From the NCBI GenBank assembly GCA_028289445.1, contig JANQPO010000020.1, positions 62,001 through 126,000 of the forward strand: a stretch of DNA of 64,000 nucleotides. Reading direction: 5' to 3'. Positions 9,442-42,222 of this stretch are shown piece by piece. Source of the DNA: Tepidamorphaceae bacterium. Lineage in GTDB: Bacteria > Pseudomonadota > Alphaproteobacteria > Rhizobiales > JAKSCL01. The position numbers and the translations under genes are program-made. The notes under the pieces were generated by a model. The model worked only from the letters and a program-made list of their open reading frames with translations. It had not been told where the DNA came from and ran no database searches. Position 1 is the first letter of the stretch; every line of letters starts with the position of its first letter.

Positions 9442-10842
9442 TCAACCCGCCGTCTTCGATTGACGCTCCAGCATCCGCAGCCAGCGACGCGCCTGTTTGC
9501 GCACATTGGTGGGCGCCGTGCCGCCATAGCTCGTTCTGGACCGGACCGAGGCTTGGACGGAGAGGACGGAGTAAACGGCATCGGTGATGCGCGCGTCCAC
9601 CGCCTGCATGTGGGCGAGGGGTAGCCGGTGCAACGGCATTCTGGCCGCCTCGGCCCGCGCGACAAGCGTGCCGGTGACGTGGTGCGCCTCGCGGAACGGC
9701 AGGCCGAGTTCGCGCACCAGCCAATCGGCGAGGTCGGTGGCCGTCGAATATCCCTCAGCGGCGGCCTTGCGCATCGCCTTTGCAACCGGTTCCATGTCGC
9801 GCACCATCCCCGTCATGGCCGCGACAGCCAATGCCAGTGTGTCCAATGCGTCGAAGACAGGCTCCTTGTCTTCCTGCATATCCTTCGAATAGGCGAGCGG
9901 CAGGCCCTTCATGACCGTCATCAAGGTATGAAGCGCGCCGATGATGCGGCCGGTCTTGGCGCGTATAAGCTCCGCAGCGTCCGGATTGCGCTTCTGCGGC
10001 ATGATCGACGAACCGGTGGTAAAGGCGTCGGAGAGCGTCACGAAGCCAAAGGGCGCCGAGGCCCAAACGACGATCTCCTCCGCAAAACGCGACAAATGCA
10101 CCGCCAGGATCGATGCTGTTGCCAGGGTCTCCAAAGCGAAATCCCGATCGGACACGGCATCGAGCGAGTTGGCGGCCGGCCTGTCGAAGCCGAGCGCCGT
10201 CGCCGTCATGTCCCGGTCGATCGGAAAGGCCGTGCCGGCAAGCGCGGCGGCGCCCAGCGGCGACTCGTTGAGCCGTTTGCGAGCGTCGGCGAACCGCCCC
10301 CGGTCGCGGCCGATCATCTCAACATAGGCGAGCAGATGATGGCCGAACGTGACAGGCTGCGCGGTCTGCAAATGCGTGAATCCCGGCATGATGACAGACG
10401 CATGGGCCAGAGCCTTTTCCGCCAAAGCCGTTTGCAGGTCCACCAGCCCGGCATCGATCCCGTCGATCGCGTCCCGCACGAAGAGCTTGAAATCCGTCGC
10501 CACCTGGTCGTTGCGCGACCGCGCAGTGTGCAGCCGGCCGGCAGCCGGTCCGATCAGTTCCGTAAGCCGCGCTTCGATGTTAAGATGGATATCTTCCAGT
10601 TCGGTCTTGAAATCGAACGTGCCCGCCTCGACTTCTGACAGGATCGTGTCTAGACCGGCATTGATTTTGTCCGCATCTTCGGCAGAGATGATTCCGGTCG
10701 CGGCGAGCATCGCCGCATGGGCTTTCGACCCCTGGATGTCTTGGGCATAAAGGCGCTTGTCAAAGCCGATGGAGGCGTTGATCTCTTCCATGATCGCACT
10801 TGGGCCGGCGGCAAACCGCCCACCCCACATTTGGTTGCTCAT
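9442..10842 (-). CDS. argH: Argininosuccinate lyase
   Basis: Splits argininosuccinate to arginine and fumarate. The family signature [11 protein letters not shown] and the N-terminal WGGRF block are both present, as is the [12 protein letters not shown] region. The ATG at 10842 ([10 protein letters not shown]) is preferred over the one at 10863, giving 466 residues, which is normal. It is divergent from the thioredoxin gene, with only 35 bases between the two starts, so both promoters must be compact or overlap neighbouring coding DNA. Confidence 0.95.
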
Positions 10843-10877
10843 GGCTATCCGGCCCCCTGTCACCTCATGAGGAATGG

Positions 10878-11522
10878 ATGATCATAACCCCGCGCAGTCG
10901 GGCACTTGGGCTGATCGCCATCGCTGCCGTCGCGGCCGGTGTCGTATACGGGATGATGGCGGCGGAAAGCAATCGCGACGTCGCCGGAGCCGCTTGCGCC
11001 GCCTCGGCCGACCGCCTTGCGGCAATGCAGCAAGCGGCGATTGGTGAACTGGCCGCGTTTCAAGTCGCAGAGCAAGCCTCGGCAATGCCGCCGCTGGCGT
11101 TTTTCGACGCCAACGGTGGCGAGACGACGCTGGCCGCTTGGTCAGGCAAGGTCGCTCTGGTCAATCTATGGGCGACCTGGTGCATCCCTTGCCGCGAGGA
11201 AATGCCGGATTTCGCGGCGCTGCAAGCCGACTATGGCGGCGAAGATTTCGAGATCGTCGCCATCAATCTCGATCGCGGCGACCGAAGCGGACCGGCAGCC
11301 TTCTTGAAGGAGGTCGGCGCCGATAATCTGGCGCTCAACACCGACGAGCGCTCCGACACGTTTCAGATTCTCAAGGGAGAAGGGCTCGCTTTCGGGCTGC
11401 CGAGCACCATCCTGGTCGACGAAGCGGGTTGCCGGATCGGTCATCTCACTGGCCCGGCGAAGTGGGACAGCGACGATGGGCGGGCGCTGATCGAGGCAGC
11501 CTTGGCGAAGCCGGTCGGCTAG
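10878..11522 (+). CDS. TlpA-family membrane-anchored thioredoxin
   Basis: Periplasmic thiol-disulfide oxidoreductase. The ATG at 10878 follows a GAGGA ribosome site, giving 214 residues. One N-terminal anchor at about 9-26 precedes a TlpA/ResA-like thioredoxin domain with the active site WCIPC (Cys102 and Cys105). The cis-Pro region is in FGLPST. Such proteins reduce apocytochrome c or copper chaperones, but the partner cannot be read here. The argH/TlpA pairing is common in Hyphomicrobiales. Confidence 0.88.
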
Positions 11523-11673
11523 GCGGGATCGACCGGAGCCAGCCCGAAGGTCGCCGCGAGAATCACCGGTCGCGGCAACGCAATTTGCGTCAATGCAGCC
11601 TTGCGCCTTACACTTCCAACGCCTGGTCGTGCCGCACGATCGTGACCGGCGCTTGCCGGGCGCGGTGAAACCC

Positions 11674-12360
11674 ATGGCTGAAGACACGACCCATCGGCCC
11701 TGGCCGAAACAAGATATCGATGCTGCTGTCTTGGGGGCGCTTGCGCACCTTTATCGCGGTGAAGTTTACCGCTCGACCCATTGGCGCACCCGCCTCGACA
11801 ACACAACCAATTGGGCAGTGGTGACGACGGGGATCGCCCTTTCCGCGACCTTCAGCAACACCAACGCCTCGCCGCTGCCGCTGGTGCTGGTTGGCTTCCT
11901 GGTCTCATTCTTTTTGATCTTCGAGGCACGGCGCTACCGCTACTACAACCTATTTCGCGCCCGCGCCCGGCTGCTTGAAACCGATCTCTACGCGCCGATG
12001 CTCAGCGGCGACAAGGTCGACGTTAACGGAGCCTGGCATGAGATGCTCGCCGATGACTACCGCACCCCGCACTATCACATCAGCTTCGTGCGTGCGGTCG
12101 GGCGGCGGCTTCGCAGCAACTATTCCTGGATATTGGTGATCCAAGCGGTCGCCTATTACGGCAAGATCGCCATCCACCCGGTGCCGCTCACCAGTCTTCA
12201 AGATGCTTATGCGCGCGCGGCGGTCGGGCCCATTTCTGGAGAGCTCGTGATCCTGGCGGGCATCGCTTTTCATCTCGGTTGGCTGATCTTCGCCCTCGTG
12301 ACGCGGCGATTAGACCATCTCTACCGGATGCAGCGAAGCTCACCGATGGAGCACAGATAG
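11674..12360 (+). CDS. DUF2270 family membrane protein
   Basis: From the ATG at 11674 (MAEDTTHRPW) the protein has 228 residues. The conserved N-terminal block LAHLYRGEVYRSTHWRTRLD is followed by two hydrophobic segments (about 47-85) and the charged EARRYRYYNLFRARARLLE block; two more membrane segments lie in the C-terminal half. This is the DUF2270 plan, and the function is unknown. The frame is open upstream to 11593, but that stretch lacks a ribosome site. The 151 bases before the start hold nothing else I recognise. Confidence 0.8.
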   Translation: MAEDTTHRPWPKQDIDAAVLGALAHLYRGEVYRSTHWRTRLDNTTNWAVVTTGIALSATFSNTNASPLPLVLVGFLVSFFLIFEARRYRYYNLFRARARLLETDLYAPMLSGDKVDVNGAWHEMLADDYRTPHYHISFVRAVGRRLRSNYSWILVIQAVAYYGKIAIHPVPLTSLQDAYARAAVGPISGELVILAGIAFHLGWLIFALVTRRLDHLYRMQRSSPMEHR

Positions 12361-36397: not shown

Positions 36398-39076
36398 ATG
36401 CCGAAATCGCCGAAAAAACCCGCAGGGTTCGAGGAAGCGCCGCAGGCCGACTATCAGGCCGTTGACTTGGCCGAAACGCCGGAGTGGGTGCGTCTTCTAG
36501 AGCAGAAGGACGGGTCCAAGGCGCCCGGCACACCTGGGTCGTCCAAACGGACGCCGAAAGGCAGGGCAAAGGAGCGCGCGCGCCATGGCGGCGACGAGAG
36601 CATCGCCGCCGACGTGCAGGACGCCAAGGGCGGCAAGACTCCGCCGAAGGCGAAACGGCCAGGCCGCAAAGACCAGAAACCGCTTAAGACGGCGCGCGGC
36701 ACGTCGATGGGCGGGCCGGCCTCGGCCAAGGATCGCGCAGCGTCAGGGCTGATGCCCGTCGCCGGGCTGGACGTCACGCTGGAAGAGGCCAAGGCACTGC
36801 CCAAATCCGGCGCGACGGCCACCGTCGAGGCACTGTCGAAACTGATCGAACACGGCAATCCCAATCTCGGCGAAGACGCCTGGGTGCCGCACCGGCCGGA
36901 ACGCCCGGAAAAATCGGAAGGCGGCGTCGCCTTTGAAAGCGTATCGGAGTTCGATCCGAAAGGGGATCAGCCCGATGCAATCGCCGAACTGGTCGGCGGG
37001 GTCAACGAGCACGAGCGCGACCAGGTGCTCCTCGGCGTCACGGGTTCCGGCAAGACCTTCACCATGGCGAAGGTGATCGAGGCGACCCAGCGCCCGGCCC
37101 TCATCCTGGCGCCCAACAAGACGCTGGCCGCCCAGCTCTATGGTGAGATGAAGGCGTTCTTCCCCGAGAACGCGGTGGAGTATTTCGTCTCCTATTACGA
37201 CTACTACCAGCCGGAGGCCTATGTGCCCCGGACCGACACCTATATCGAGAAGGAATCGTCGATCAACGAGCAGATCGACCGGATGCGCCACTCCGCCACC
37301 CGCGCGCTGCTTGAACGCGACGACGTGGTGATCGTCGCGTCGGTCTCCTGCATCTACGGCATCGGCTCGGTCGAGACCTATACGGCGATGACGTTTGCGG
37401 TTGAGCTTGGCGACCGGCTCGATCAGCGGCAGCTGTTGGCCGATCTGGTGGCGCTGCAATACAAGCGCGCCGACGTCATGGGGCGCGGCACGTTCCGGGT
37501 GCGCGGCGACACGATCGAACTGTGGCCGGCGCACCTTGAAGATCGCTGCTGGCGCTTCTCGCTCTTCGGCGACGAGGTCGAGGGGATCCTCGAATTCGAT
37601 CCGCTGACCGGCAAGAAGACCGGCGATTTCAAGTCGGTGAAGATCTACGCCAACTCCCACTACGTGACCCCGCGCCCGACGCTGACCCAGGCGATGAAGG
37701 GCATCAAGGACGAGTTGCGCGCCCGCCTCGACGAGCTGAATCATGCCGGCCGGCTGTTGGAGGCACAGCGCCTGGAACAGCGCACCATTTTCGACCTGGA
37801 GATGATGGAGGCGACCGGCTCCTGCGCCGGGATCGAGAACTATTCCCGCTATCTGACCGGCCGCAAGCCGGGCGAGCCACCGCCGACGCTGTTCGAATAT
37901 CTGCCGGACAACGCCCTCGTCTTCGTCGACGAGAGCCATGTCACCATCGGCCAACTCGGGGGCATGTATCGCGGCGACTTCCGGCGCAAGGCGACGCTTG
38001 CGGAATACGGCTTCCGCCTCCCGTCCTGCATGGACAACCGGCCGCTGCGGTTCGAGGAATGGGACGCCATGCGCCCGCAAACGGTGTGCGTCTCGGCGAC
38101 GCCCGGCGGGTGGGAGCTGAACCAGACCGGCGGCGTCTTCGCCGAACAGGTCATCCGGCCGACGGGGCTGACCGACCCGCCCGTGGAGGTGCGCCCGGCG
38201 ACCAGCCAGGTCGACGACCTGCTCGACACGGTGCGCCAGGTGGCGGCCGACGGCTATCGCGCGCTGGTGACGGTGCTCACCAAGCGGATGGCGGAGGACC
38301 TGACCGAATATCTGCACGAACAAGGCGTGCGCGTGCGCTACATGCACTCCGACATCGACACGCTGGAGCGGATCGAGATCATCCGCGATCTCCGGCTCGG
38401 CGCCTTCGACGTTCTGGTCGGCATCAACCTGTTGCGCGAGGGGCTGGATATTCCCGAATGCGCGCTGGTGGCGATTCTCGACGCCGACAAGGAAGGATTC
38501 CTGAGGTCGGAGACCTCGCTGGTCCAGACCATCGGCCGCGCGGCCAGGAATGTCGACGGCCGGGTGATCCTTTACGCCGACACGGTCACCGGCTCGATGG
38601 AGCGGGCGATCGGCGAGACCAACCGAAGGCGCGAGAAGCAGGTCGCTTACAACGATGCGAATGGCATCACGCCGGAGTCGGTGAAGAAGAATATCGGCGA
38701 CATCCTCTCATCGGTCTATGAGGGCGACCATGTGAAGGTGCCGACCGGCATGGCCGAAGAGGGCGCGCTGATCGGGCATAACCTGAAGGCCCATATCGCC
38801 GATCTTGAGACGAAGATGCGCGACGCCGCCGCCAATCTGGAGTTCGAGGAGGCGGCCCGCCTGCGCGACGAAATCAAGCGGCTTCAAGAGGCCGAACTGG
38901 CCGTCGCCGACGATCCCCTGGCGCGGTTGACGGAAGCGGAGGCCAAGGCGGCGCGGTCAGGTGAGCGGAATAGGGGTAGAGGTGGGAAGGGGAATTCGGG
39001 CGGCTCAGGCAGGGTCAGGAAGAACACACTCGACGAAATGACTGTACGACGCACCGAGATACCGAAAGGGCGATGA
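36398..39076 (+). CDS. uvrB: Excinuclease ABC subunit B, with N-terminal extension
   Basis: Damage-verification helicase of nucleotide excision repair. It is 892 residues long, against about 670 in E. coli; the first 185 or so are a basic, low-complexity extension seen in rhizobial UvrB. Core motifs: Walker A GVTGSGKT (about 211-218), the beta-hairpin region [15 protein letters not shown], helicase motif VDESHVT, GRAARN, and a C-terminal UVR domain ([27 protein letters not shown]). After a Gly/Ser/Arg-rich linker it ends with [19 protein letters not shown]. The same terminal peptide is encoded again at 39223-39282 in another frame. Confidence 0.95.
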
Positions 39077-39144: not shown

Positions 39145-39282
39145 GCAAAGCGAACGTACGGCCGTGAGCGAGAAGAAAGAAGCGAGGAGTGCGAAGGCAC
39201 GACCGGGACGAAAAAGAGCCGCGTGAGAAAAAATACGCTGGATGAGATGACGGTGCGAAGAACGGAGATTCCGAGGGGGTAA
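39145..39282 (+). pseudogene. Second, detached uvrB 3' end
   Basis: An open stretch with no start of its own ends in [19 protein letters not shown] and a TAA at 39280-39282, preceded by GTKKSR. The last 18 residues match the end of the intact UvrB except Lys to Arg, yet almost every codon differs in the third base. It is in a different frame (+2) from uvrB and separated by 146 bases of GC-rich sequence with short inverted repeats. It looks like the displaced old 3' terminus of uvrB, or one brought in with foreign DNA. Confidence 0.7.
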
Positions 39283-39377: not shown

Positions 39378-40736
39378 ATGTTCCAGATGCCCAAGCCTCA
39401 AAGATTACGTGATCCGGTTCATGATCTTATTGAGTTTGATGATGGCGAGTTTGAGTCAGCCATTTGGAAGATTATCGACACCTCCGAGTTTCAACGCCTT
39501 CGCAGAATAAAGCAGCTGGGTTTTTCGGAATTTGTCTATCCTGGTGCAACTCATACGCGCTTCGCACATAGCGTAGGGGTGTTCAATACGGCTAGACAAC
39601 TGTGTCGCGTGGTTTCAAGCCAGCGACCCGATCAATCTAATGTTGATTCGATACGAACAGCATCAGTAGCGGCCCTGGTCCACGATCTTGGTCACGGCCC
39701 ATTTAGTCACGCTTTCGAAGAAGCGATGAAGGCGCTGAAGAAGAAGAAGAAGCATGAACATTGGACTGTTGACATCATCAATGAGTCGACCGAATTGGGC
39801 AATTTGATTGCCGATCTTTTCGATAACGAATTTAGAAAAAAAGTATCGGATATACTTACCAGTGAAATTCCAGAGAACGTTTTCGGGGCAATCGTCTCAA
39901 GCCAGTTTGACGCGGATCGTCTAGATTACATTCGGCGTGATCGGCTTATGACAGGTGCCGATTACGGCAAGTTTGACTATTCGTGGGTACTCGCGAACTT
40001 GGAGGTGGCCGACGTACCAATCACGGTCGATGACACTGATCTCAAGTCAGTTTCAACGTTGATCCTCGGCCCAAAGGCGCTTCAGGCTGCGGAAGCTTAT
40101 GTTCTTGGTTTGTTCCAGCTCTATTTCTGTGTATATTTCCACAAGGCGACCCGTTCGGCGGAGGTAATGCTAACCGCCATTTTGACTCGCCTCGGTGAGC
40201 TGGTTGTCGACGAAAAGGTCGAGATTTCAGGTCTCTATCCTGAGAACCTTATTTGTCGATTTCTGGCTAGAAACGATTTGGAAACTTATTTGCGCCTAGA
40301 CGACTATGCGGTTTGGAGCACTGTTAATATGCTTCGTGATTCGCCGGATGACATCCTAAGGGAGCTTTCGAGTCGCTTGCTCGATAGGCAACTGTATAAG
40401 GTTGTCGATGTTGCGGACAGTTTTCGAGGCGACCAAGCCAAGGTCATGCAATTTCGGATGGAGTTCAGCGAGCGACTGCAGGATGGCGCGATTTTGCAAT
40501 CTGACGCAATTCTGGACATGCCGTTTCGCGATCCATATGAGCGCCGGCAATTCGGTTCCGCCGGCGGATTGAAGACGATCTACATCAAGCCCTCCAAATA
40601 CGCTCTACCAAGTGATCTTAAGGACGAGTCGGATGTCGTGTCGGCTTTGCAAAGTCGACAACTCGTTCGCGTCCATGTTCGAAATTCAGAAACTGAAGAA
40701 CAAATCAAATCTCTCATCCAGGAGATTCAATCATGA
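39378..40736 (+). CDS. SAMHD1-like HD-domain phosphohydrolase (YwfO-like)
   Basis: 452 residues. The HD metal site is His64 (RFAHSVG), His102-Asp103 (VHDLGHGPFSH) and Asp178 in SQFDADRLDY, the same layout as SAMHD1 and the Bacillus YwfO protein, which hydrolyse deoxynucleoside triphosphates. Base composition is clearly more AT-rich than the chromosome around it, with many rare-looking codons, which suggests transfer. It overlaps the next gene by 4 bases (ATGA). A dNTPase acting in nucleotide control or phage defence is inferred, not shown. Confidence 0.85.
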   Translation: MFQMPKPQRLRDPVHDLIEFDDGEFESAIWKIIDTSEFQRLRRIKQLGFSEFVYPGATHTRFAHSVGVFNTARQLCRVVSSQRPDQSNVDSIRTASVAALVHDLGHGPFSHAFEEAMKALKKKKKHEHWTVDIINESTELGNLIADLFDNEFRKKVSDILTSEIPENVFGAIVSSQFDADRLDYIRRDRLMTGADYGKFDYSWVLANLEVADVPITVDDTDLKSVSTLILGPKALQAAEAYVLGLFQLYFCVYFHKATRSAEVMLTAILTRLGELVVDEKVEISGLYPENLICRFLARNDLETYLRLDDYAVWSTVNMLRDSPDDILRELSSRLLDRQLYKVVDVADSFRGDQAKVMQFRMEFSERLQDGAILQSDAILDMPFRDPYERRQFGSAGGLKTIYIKPSKYALPSDLKDESDVVSALQSRQLVRVHVRNSETEEQIKSLIQEIQS

Positions 40737-41227
40737 ACTATGACCCGAACGCCGCAGCTCACATCGTTCGCTTGAATGGTGGTTCTCTCGTTGGAAACAC
40801 GCGGTTCCAAAAGACGACTTATTTCCTGGAGGCGTTGGACGTAGGATTTGGCTTTGATTTTGACTATCATTACTATGGACCTTATTGCGATGATCTGAAA
40901 ATATCGATTGAAGACTCTGTCTTTCTGGGACTAATCAGCAGTGAATTAGGGACCACGAATTCAGGAAATGAGTACTCTCGATATGACTTGATAGACGATC
41001 CAATTACGGATGACGCTTCCGATCAAAAAAGAGAAATAATATTGGAGATATTGAGAAATTACGATTCTGTTAGCTTGGAAATTGCGGCGACAGCGGATTT
41101 TCTGAAAAATAACGGCTCAGAGCAAGATTTTTGGGAAGAAACTAAGAAGCGCAAAGCGTCAAAATGTACAGAATTTTATTTGGAAAGGGCTGAAAAAATT
41201 TTGGAAGCTTTGGAGCAAATTTCCTAA
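40733..41227 (+). CDS. YwgA-like partner protein of the HD hydrolase
   Basis: 164 residues, AT-rich like its neighbour. The N-terminal third carries FQKTTYFLEALDVGFGF and DYHYYGPYCDDL, a pattern shared with YwgA of Bacillus, which is next to the HD gene ywfO, and distantly with Panacea-type (DUF4065) proteins. The remainder is charged and probably helical, ending in a coiled-coil-like helix. Translation is coupled to the HD gene. Role unknown; a regulator or antitoxin-like partner of the hydrolase is one option. Confidence 0.65.
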   Translation: MNYDPNAAAHIVRLNGGSLVGNTRFQKTTYFLEALDVGFGFDFDYHYYGPYCDDLKISIEDSVFLGLISSELGTTNSGNEYSRYDLIDDPITDDASDQKREIILEILRNYDSVSLEIAATADFLKNNGSEQDFWEETKKRKASKCTEFYLERAEKILEALEQIS

Positions 41228-41261: not shown

Positions 41262-42110
41262 CTACCGAAACACCACCTTCTCCACACCACCGGTCCGCGT
41301 CGGATAGCGAATCGTGACACCAGTGCTGGTGGCCTCCGCCGATAGATCGCCGCCGACGCCGCCAGGCGCCTCTTCACGGGCGATTTCGACCCACGCGCCA
41401 TCTCGATAGGTCACGGCGACCAGCGTCCGCCGTGCCGCGTCCGGCAGGACCAGATCGGCCACGCCGTCGCCCGTCATCTCCACCACCGCCGAGAGGCCGA
41501 GCGCGCGCGAGCCGATGGCGTGGTTGGAGAACCCGAACGCCGACGCCGCTTTGGTCAACGCTTTGCCGTTAAATGACCAAAGCTCCAGCGTGCCGCCGAT
41601 ATGCGGCGTCTTCACCACCGCGACGTCCAACCGGCCATCGCCGGTGAAGTCAGCGATCCCGGCGACGTTCAGCCAGCGATTGGGCCGGCCGATTGGCGGG
41701 ACTTGCGCCACCGATTGGAGCGCCTTGCCGTCCGCCCCATCGCGCAGCCCGAAGAGCGCCAGCGCACCGCCGCCGCTTTGGGTGGACAAGAGCGTGACGA
41801 CCTCCGTCCGGCCGTCGCCATCCAGATCGGCCAGGCGCGGCGTGATGTCCTCGAACACCGCGTCCCTGGGCAACTCTAGCGTCAGCGTCGCGCCGTCCGC
41901 CGTCTTGACCGCCAGCCCCGCCGCCTCGATGGCGTCGCCCAGAACCGCGTGGGCGTAGCGCTCCGTCGGCCCCACATACCAGGCCGCGCGGATATCGCCG
42001 GTGCCGGTCGCCGTGCCGCCATCGGGGAGCCGTGCGTTCAGATCAGCGGCATCGGCCAAGCCCGGCGCGGACAGCATGGCGGCGAAGACAAAGACAGCAC
42101 ATCGGATCAC
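41262..42110 (-). CDS. Secreted FG-GAP/VCBS-repeat protein
   Basis: The GTG at 42110 follows GGGGAGG by five bases and opens a Sec signal peptide (VIRCAVFVFAAMLSAPGLADA), giving 282 residues. The mature part has calcium-type FG-GAP/VCBS loops: LADLDGDGRTEVV, IADFTGDGRLDVAV and VVEMTGDGVADLVL, spaced as blades of a small propeller. Such proteins are exported and may bind partners; no enzyme motif is seen. It is convergent with the AT-rich cassette and divergent from the DUF6665-like gene. Confidence 0.82.
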   Translation of the reverse strand: MIRCAVFVFAAMLSAPGLADAADLNARLPDGGTATGTGDIRAAWYVGPTERYAHAVLGDAIEAAGLAVKTADGATLTLELPRDAVFEDITPRLADLDGDGRTEVVTLLSTQSGGGALALFGLRDGADGKALQSVAQVPPIGRPNRWLNVAGIADFTGDGRLDVAVVKTPHIGGTLELWSFNGKALTKAASAFGFSNHAIGSRALGLSAVVEMTGDGVADLVLPDAARRTLVAVTYRDGAWVEIAREEAPGGVGGDLSAEATSTGVTIRYPTRTGGVEKVVFR

Positions 42111-42222
42111 GGACACCTCCCCTGTTAGCGATTGCTTCTGCCCCACCTAACCCGATCCCCCAAGCGCGAACGGCGCCCCTCACCGTCTTTTGAAGGACGC
42201 AGCAACGCGTTATATGCGGGCG

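Follow-up and report, generated by a model that had tools for sequence, protein, structure and literature searches.

The window, which is the whole 64,000-nucleotide stretch of DNA analysed from a Tepidamorphaceae bacterium, has a cassette of two genes (Table 1). The first encodes an HD-domain protein and the second a small partner protein. In the window open reading frames, the stop codon of the HD gene and the start codon of the partner gene share the sequence ATGA. Judging from its relatives, the translation start of the HD protein may be at Met4 (39387). The G+C content of the cassette is 0.463, compared to a window mean of 0.612 and a minimum of 0.562 for any other 1850-base stretch in the window. 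The preliminary description of this DNA had called the two genes coupled and AT-rich, and the reading frames, the ATGA overlap and the 46.3% G+C bear this out. The promoter scan at the cassette did not find a sigma-70-like site, and terminator-like sites at the cassette were at no more than chance level. The FG-GAP/uvrB neighbourhood of the cassette is not conserved among genomes of the order.

Table 1. The cassette and its immediate flanks, in window positions
Feature	Position	Strand	Description
Complete uvrB, upstream neighbour, outside the cassette	36398..39076	+	892 aa; UvrB_inter, UvrB, Helicase_C and UVR domains
Diverged second copy of the uvrB 3' end	39224..39280	+	Between uvrB and the cassette; from the uvrB search and a peptide scan
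HD-domain dNTPase gene (predicted)	39378..40736	+	452 aa; EF1143/YwfO/SAMHD1 branch; Pfam HD and HD_assoc_2
YwgA / DarG-CTD-like partner gene	40733..41227	+	164 aa
FG-GAP repeat gene, convergent downstream neighbour, outside the cassette	41262..42146	-	Pfam FG-GAP_3

The cassette had also been described as lying beside a disturbed end of uvrB, and this disturbance is real, with a slight difference from that description. The uvrB gene itself is complete, with all of its domains; what is disturbed is its flank, where the 3' end of the gene is duplicated. The second copy was revealed by a uvrB search match at G000:C10:101175-101279. The peptide encoded by this copy is identical to that of the true uvrB end ([18 protein letters not shown]), but most of its codons are synonymously different. 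Therefore, it is not a recent tandem duplication, and it looks like an acquisition scar. No att-type direct repeat was found around the cassette, where the only repeat is this diverged copy. There was no other species of the same genus among the relatives searched, and uvrB is fragmented in the one family relative searched. A Mangrovicella cassette (L091:8550-14244), which is distant from that of the window, also lies near a uvrB 3' end with a short open reading frame between them. The uvrB 3' flank may be a recurrent insertion site, but two cases do not suffice to decide this. In another genome of the order, a Panacea antitoxin gene (G034:C2:494983-495297, L207) is located approximately 1.1 kb upstream of uvrB.

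The HD protein exceeds the cut-offs of both of its Pfam models. Its metal site (H64, H102-D103 and D180) and HE dyad (H126-E127) are invariant in 73 homologues, and these residues align with those of SAMHD1 and EF1143. The alignment gave no sign of a degraded metal site, so the earlier assignment as a SAMHD1-like HD protein with an intact H..HD..D motif stands. When 60 homologues were combined into a profile, it matched Enterococcus faecalis EF1143 along the whole chain (E 2.3e-101) and SAMHD1 at about 1e-45 to 1e-52. The AlphaFold model (pLDDT 94.7) gives a Z score of 42.2 over 417 residues with 3irh (EF1143 with dGTP/dATP) and 33.6 with 4bzc; the alignments for this and the other structure model were built from window and fetched-locus proteins only. 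In contrast, the scores of the protein are far under the cut-offs for the anti-phage dGTPase family NF041026 (27.3 bits against 400) and the dGTPase family TIGR01353 (45.6 bits against 152.35); therefore, it is placed in the EF1143/YwfO/SAMHD1 branch. Among the homologues, conservation of Q39 and R42 is 90% or more, and the window protein also has D34. These three residues are presumed to map to the guanine-nucleotide allosteric site of SAMHD1. The conserved residues and the fold suggest that the protein very probably has dNTPase activity.

The partner protein does not match any Pfam family, including Panacea (PF13274). The DarG model of PADLOC matches it only in the C-terminal part of DarG (E 3.6e-8), and the score of 21.3 bits misses the DarG cut-off of 250. 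In a search with a profile built from 79 homologues, chain B of 7yk3, which is the DarG domain of the Mycobacterium DarTG complex, was matched with an E value of 8e-6. The structure model (pLDDT 95.4) agrees with 7yk3 over 155 residues at a Z score of 12.2, where the next match has a Z score of 6.0. Profile comparison with hhalign gives 95.6% for the DarG C-terminal domain (DarG-CTD) and 99.9% (E 2e-33) for the Priestia/Bacillota YwgA group, which includes a Priestia gene that adjoins an HD gene. The resemblance of the second gene to YwgA, noted from the start, is confirmed by this last match. The net charge is -15 in the window protein and has a median of -1 in the family, so that charge-based mimicry of ssDNA is not supported as a family trait.

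A 154-aa Acidobacteriota protein (L237:1387-1851, minus strand), whose gene overlaps a 248-aa gene of unknown family, links the partner to Panacea. It matches the partner profile with an E value of 2e-10 (search space 100,000) and Pfam Panacea at 3.6e-16, which is over the cut-off. In hhalign, the comparison of the Panacea profile with the partner rises from 15% to 94% once this protein is added, although the direct comparison of the partner profile with local alphaproteobacterial Panacea proteins gives 3% and is not significant. As far as profile comparison can tell, this protein bridges YwgA and DarG-CTD to Panacea, and the three probably belong to a single superfamily as remote branches.

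Other proteins also resemble the partner. A 666-aa protein with a type I restriction specificity domain (Methylase_S; L242:103-2103, plus strand) is followed by an HsdR gene. Residues 467-586 of this protein weakly resemble YwgA/DarG-CTD (E 2.4e-6), and the partner fold may here be fused to a restriction system. At L061:9953-10465 (plus strand) there is a YwgA-like gene without an HD neighbour, and the next large open reading frame (10644-12191, opposite strand) has the Schlafen domain AlbA_2. Two small proteins of Sulfolobus viruses (BFVD A0A2H4RBN9 and A0A3Q8Q497) resemble the partner fold with a best Foldseek E value of 2.3e-4, and are perhaps viral inhibitors of the same kind.

The pairing of the two genes is conserved. 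When the partner protein alone was used as the query over 84,980 genomes, 79 loci were found, and an HD gene lies directly upstream on the same strand in 74 of them, mostly overlapping the partner gene. Since these loci were found by the partner alone, chance pairing is excluded. The loci come from about ten phyla, most of them from Alphaproteobacteria. Other proteobacterial and desulfobacterial loci are from Beta- and 'Lambda'-proteobacteria, Desulfovibrio and Desulfobacteraceae, and the remaining loci are from Acidobacteria, myxobacteria, Verrucomicrobia, Bacteroidota, Chloroherpetonaceae, Spirochaetaceae, Rhodothermales and Bacillota. In a sample of 199 genomes drawn from the phylum to which the Bacillota locus belongs, 42 have a partner match, some of which are DarG, and the HD gene adjoins the partner in 23 of 25 fetched Bacillota loci. 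A separate, independent search used the HD protein as the query and gave approximately 14 strong homologues in 199 genomes of the same order, nearly all with the partner alongside; in one of them (L016) the gene order is reversed. The suggestion of a conserved module in distant phyla is therefore upheld, with co-occurrence that is near-universal and extends beyond Bacillus and this genome. The pairwise distances of the HD and partner proteins are also closely correlated (Mantel r 0.92 for 60 pairs, with a maximum of 0.30 in 2000 permutations). The enzyme and its partner co-evolve, and the partner protein is likely to be a direct partner that binds the enzyme.

The pair is mobile and most likely laterally transferred. 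Its distribution within the order is patchy (about 14 of 199 genomes), and in this order it is not a vertically inherited core locus. The G+C content of the cassette is more than 3 points lower than that of its flanks in 56 of 60 loci, with a mean difference of -10.7 points, and is richer in none. Orders are mixed in the HD tree, where Desulfovibrio, Betaproteobacteria and Rhodothermales fall within largely alphaproteobacterial groups. The cassette adjoins an integrase in one locus (L102) and a terminase in another (L106), and three viral contigs (L103, L107 and L108) carry further copies. All of this agrees with the mobile-looking unit that was first proposed.

Genes of defence systems are found near the cassettes. 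The three nearest genes on each side matched 70 PADLOC families (124 genes) and 150 (130 genes), compared to 7 families among 133 control genes from cassette-bearing relatives; these figures count families matched, with many redundant models on one protein, and not systems. The dGTPase match in the control is due to a control region that held a core dgt gene. The cassette neighbours include type I and type II restriction-modification genes, reverse-transcriptase systems and MzaA-, DpdJ- and BrxH-like genes. From this genomic company and by analogy, we infer that the pair may serve in phage defence.

One locus (L063:9808-10495, plus strand) has an intact YwgA-like gene flanked by mod and res of a type III restriction system, and upstream of these there are more restriction genes. 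This was considered as a case of a partner adopted by type III restriction, and was rejected when a stop-to-stop scan showed that an HD gene remnant, consisting of its first 33 codons, lies directly upstream of the YwgA-like gene. The locus is a decayed cassette within a restriction/defence island.

The main rival to a defence role is housekeeping dNTP homeostasis, since the pair looks like a stable core locus in Bacillus-type genomes. The pair would adjust dNTP pools during normal growth or under stress, the partner having a regulatory role, and would have spread by transfer although it is not a defence system. In Priestia the pair is found among core Bacillus genes, next to ywhD and near pta; in Priestia megaterium the HD gene is followed by the YwgA-like gene after a 23-base gap. 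EF1143-type enzymes are self-regulated dNTPases (PMC12042053), which also agrees with housekeeping. Many genomes have a further HD dNTPase, of the Dgt type, that serves homeostasis, and this has been counted towards it as well. Against it, the copies outside Bacillota are patchy, A+T-rich, mobile, phage-borne and in defence islands, and housekeeping is judged unlikely overall. From genomic company and analogy, a defence or toxin-antitoxin role rather than housekeeping seems fairly likely in this lineage. Housekeeping in Bacillota and defence in the mobile copies may both be true.

Some relatives of the HD enzyme do not have the partner. Staphylococcus has kept the HD gene without a YwgA-like gene. 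Rhizobiales plasmids, from Sinorhizobium and Roseibium (L115:3622-7407, L118:3626-7413 and L114:267-3886) carry an operon of a radical SAM protein, a DEDDh exonuclease, an AAA_28 ATPase and an HD protein, in that order. The radical SAM protein does not have a PADLOC or Pfam match at E 1e-5. The plasmid HD proteins nest within the HD tree of the cassettes on a long branch. Shedu genes (L115) and CBASS-like genes (L118) adjoin the plasmid operon, and this company supports a defence use of the enzyme, not of the partner. Since such orphan HD relatives exist, the enzyme does not always need a YwgA antidote.

The partner had been left as a sensor, inhibitor or activator of the hydrolase. DarG-CTD blocks DarT through mimicry of ssDNA (PMC11481870), and Panacea antitoxins neutralise diverse toxins by complex formation (PMC8832971). 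The kinship of the partner to these inhibitory antitoxin domains favours an inhibitor, and the partner leans towards acting as an inhibitor rather than an activator. If it were instead an activator or an infection sensor that turns the dNTPase on, HD relatives without the partner would be expected, as an enzyme that is silent alone can be kept, and the defence-island setting would fit a sensor. This is improbable, since DarG-CTD and Panacea, the two relatives of the fold that have been characterised, each bind directly to their partners and thereby neutralise them. In addition, eight loci (L010, L063, L070, L084, L086, L186, L189 and L201) have a broken HD gene with an intact partner and none have the reverse, a count that is suggestive only, weak and biased, since a ratio of 2.75:1 is expected from gene length and the partner gene was the query that led to most of the loci. 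It is very improbable that the partner is a winged-helix transcriptional regulator of the operon, since the PadR/MarR-type chains that are its next structural matches reach Z scores of about 5-6 over about 80 residues, which is the background level of the tool, whereas DarG-CTD is matched over the whole length, and tight co-evolution with the enzyme would be unexpected for a simple repressor.

Conservation of the pair, an intact catalytic site, the two folds, co-evolution, mobility and defence-island company were observed here, and the reading preferred for them is a laterally transferred effector/inhibitor module, defence- or toxin-antitoxin-like, in which a nucleotide-depleting dNTPase is restrained by a DarG-CTD-like protein. 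The probability of this reading is estimated at about 0.5. The partner, translated in step with the enzyme, would bind it and keep it inactive. It would most likely fill a nucleotide- or oligonucleotide-binding allosteric or oligomer interface, as DarG-CTD fills the ssDNA groove of DarT. Infection would lift this restraint. The enzyme, once released and allosterically activated, would cleave dNTPs to deoxynucleosides and triphosphate, and the loss of dNTPs could starve DNA replication and harm the infecting phage or the cell. SAMHD1 allosteric sites can accept oligonucleotides (PMC7854603). Speculatively, the partner could be a protein stand-in for an oligonucleotide at the allosteric site of the dNTPase, although the average charge of the family does not demand this.

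In animals, dNTPases of the SAMHD1 type act against viruses, and in bacteria dNTPases are known as defence effectors. To our knowledge, the regulation of the bacterial defence dNTPases was largely open before Clover. The pair is absent from PADLOC-DB 2.0.0, where its parts match only as weak dGTPase and DarG. The literature searched, which covered few of the subscription papers, did not contain a description of the HD-YwgA pair or of the function of the YwfO-YwgA pair. The HD-YwgA pair probably represents an anti-phage or toxin-antitoxin-like unit that has not been described before. If so, it would be a second, protein-based means of restraining a nucleotide-depleting effector besides Clover, and would suggest a function for the YwfO-YwgA pair. 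On the more tentative reading that the partner plugs the allosteric site of the dNTPase, the DarG-CTD/YwgA/Panacea fold would be a general plug-in inhibitor of unrelated effectors, namely DarT, dNTPases, Panacea toxins and perhaps, through fusion, type I HsdS.

One of the closest known systems is the YwfO-YwgA pair of Bacillus-type genomes, which has the same two families in the same order and partner profiles that are 99.9% related. The Bacillus-type pair lies in a core neighbourhood, with a gap between the genes in Priestia, whereas the window pair is mobile, A+T-rich and overlapping. The EF1143/SAMHD1-type dNTPases share whole-chain homology, fold and catalytic residues with the window HD protein; their solved structures are without a YwgA-like partner, and regulation there is by (d)NTPs. 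The anti-phage dGTPase (SpdGTPase; NF041026 and PADLOC dGTPase) has an HD effector and the idea of nucleotide depletion in common with the cassette. However, it belongs to another branch of the HD superfamily, under whose cut-off of 400 bits the window protein falls at 27, and it is a single-gene system.

On the side of the partner, the comparison is with DarTG and Panacea. In its fold, the window partner corresponds to DarG-CTD, with which DarG blocks DarT, and the order of effector then inhibitor is the same. The cassette differs in that it does not have a macrodomain or DarT, and its effector is the HD dNTPase. The Panacea proteins (PanA/SocA) are likewise small partners with remote homology to the window protein through the Acidobacteriota bridge, but the window protein does not match PF13274 and its direct profile comparison with local Panacea proteins fails.

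Clover, a close functional precedent for a toxic dNTPase restrained by a partner, is also a two-gene system of a dNTPase effector (CloA) and a partner, the nucleotidyltransferase CloB (PMC12265719). Without its partner, CloA is toxic. CloB synthesises the thymidine dinucleotide triphosphate p3diT, which blocks CloA by binding to a site on the enzyme (PMC12265719). The window cassette does not have a nucleotidyltransferase, and is flanked by uvrB and the FG-GAP gene. Its enzyme is of the EF1143/SAMHD1 branch and its partner is a predicted protein inhibitor. A tentative extension of the comparison is that HD-YwgA would be an anti-phage or toxin-antitoxin system present in many phyla. Its partner, as a member of the DarG-CTD/Panacea superfamily, would plug the nucleotide- or oligonucleotide-binding allosteric site of the SAMHD1-type dNTPase and would thus be a protein counterpart of p3diT in Clover.
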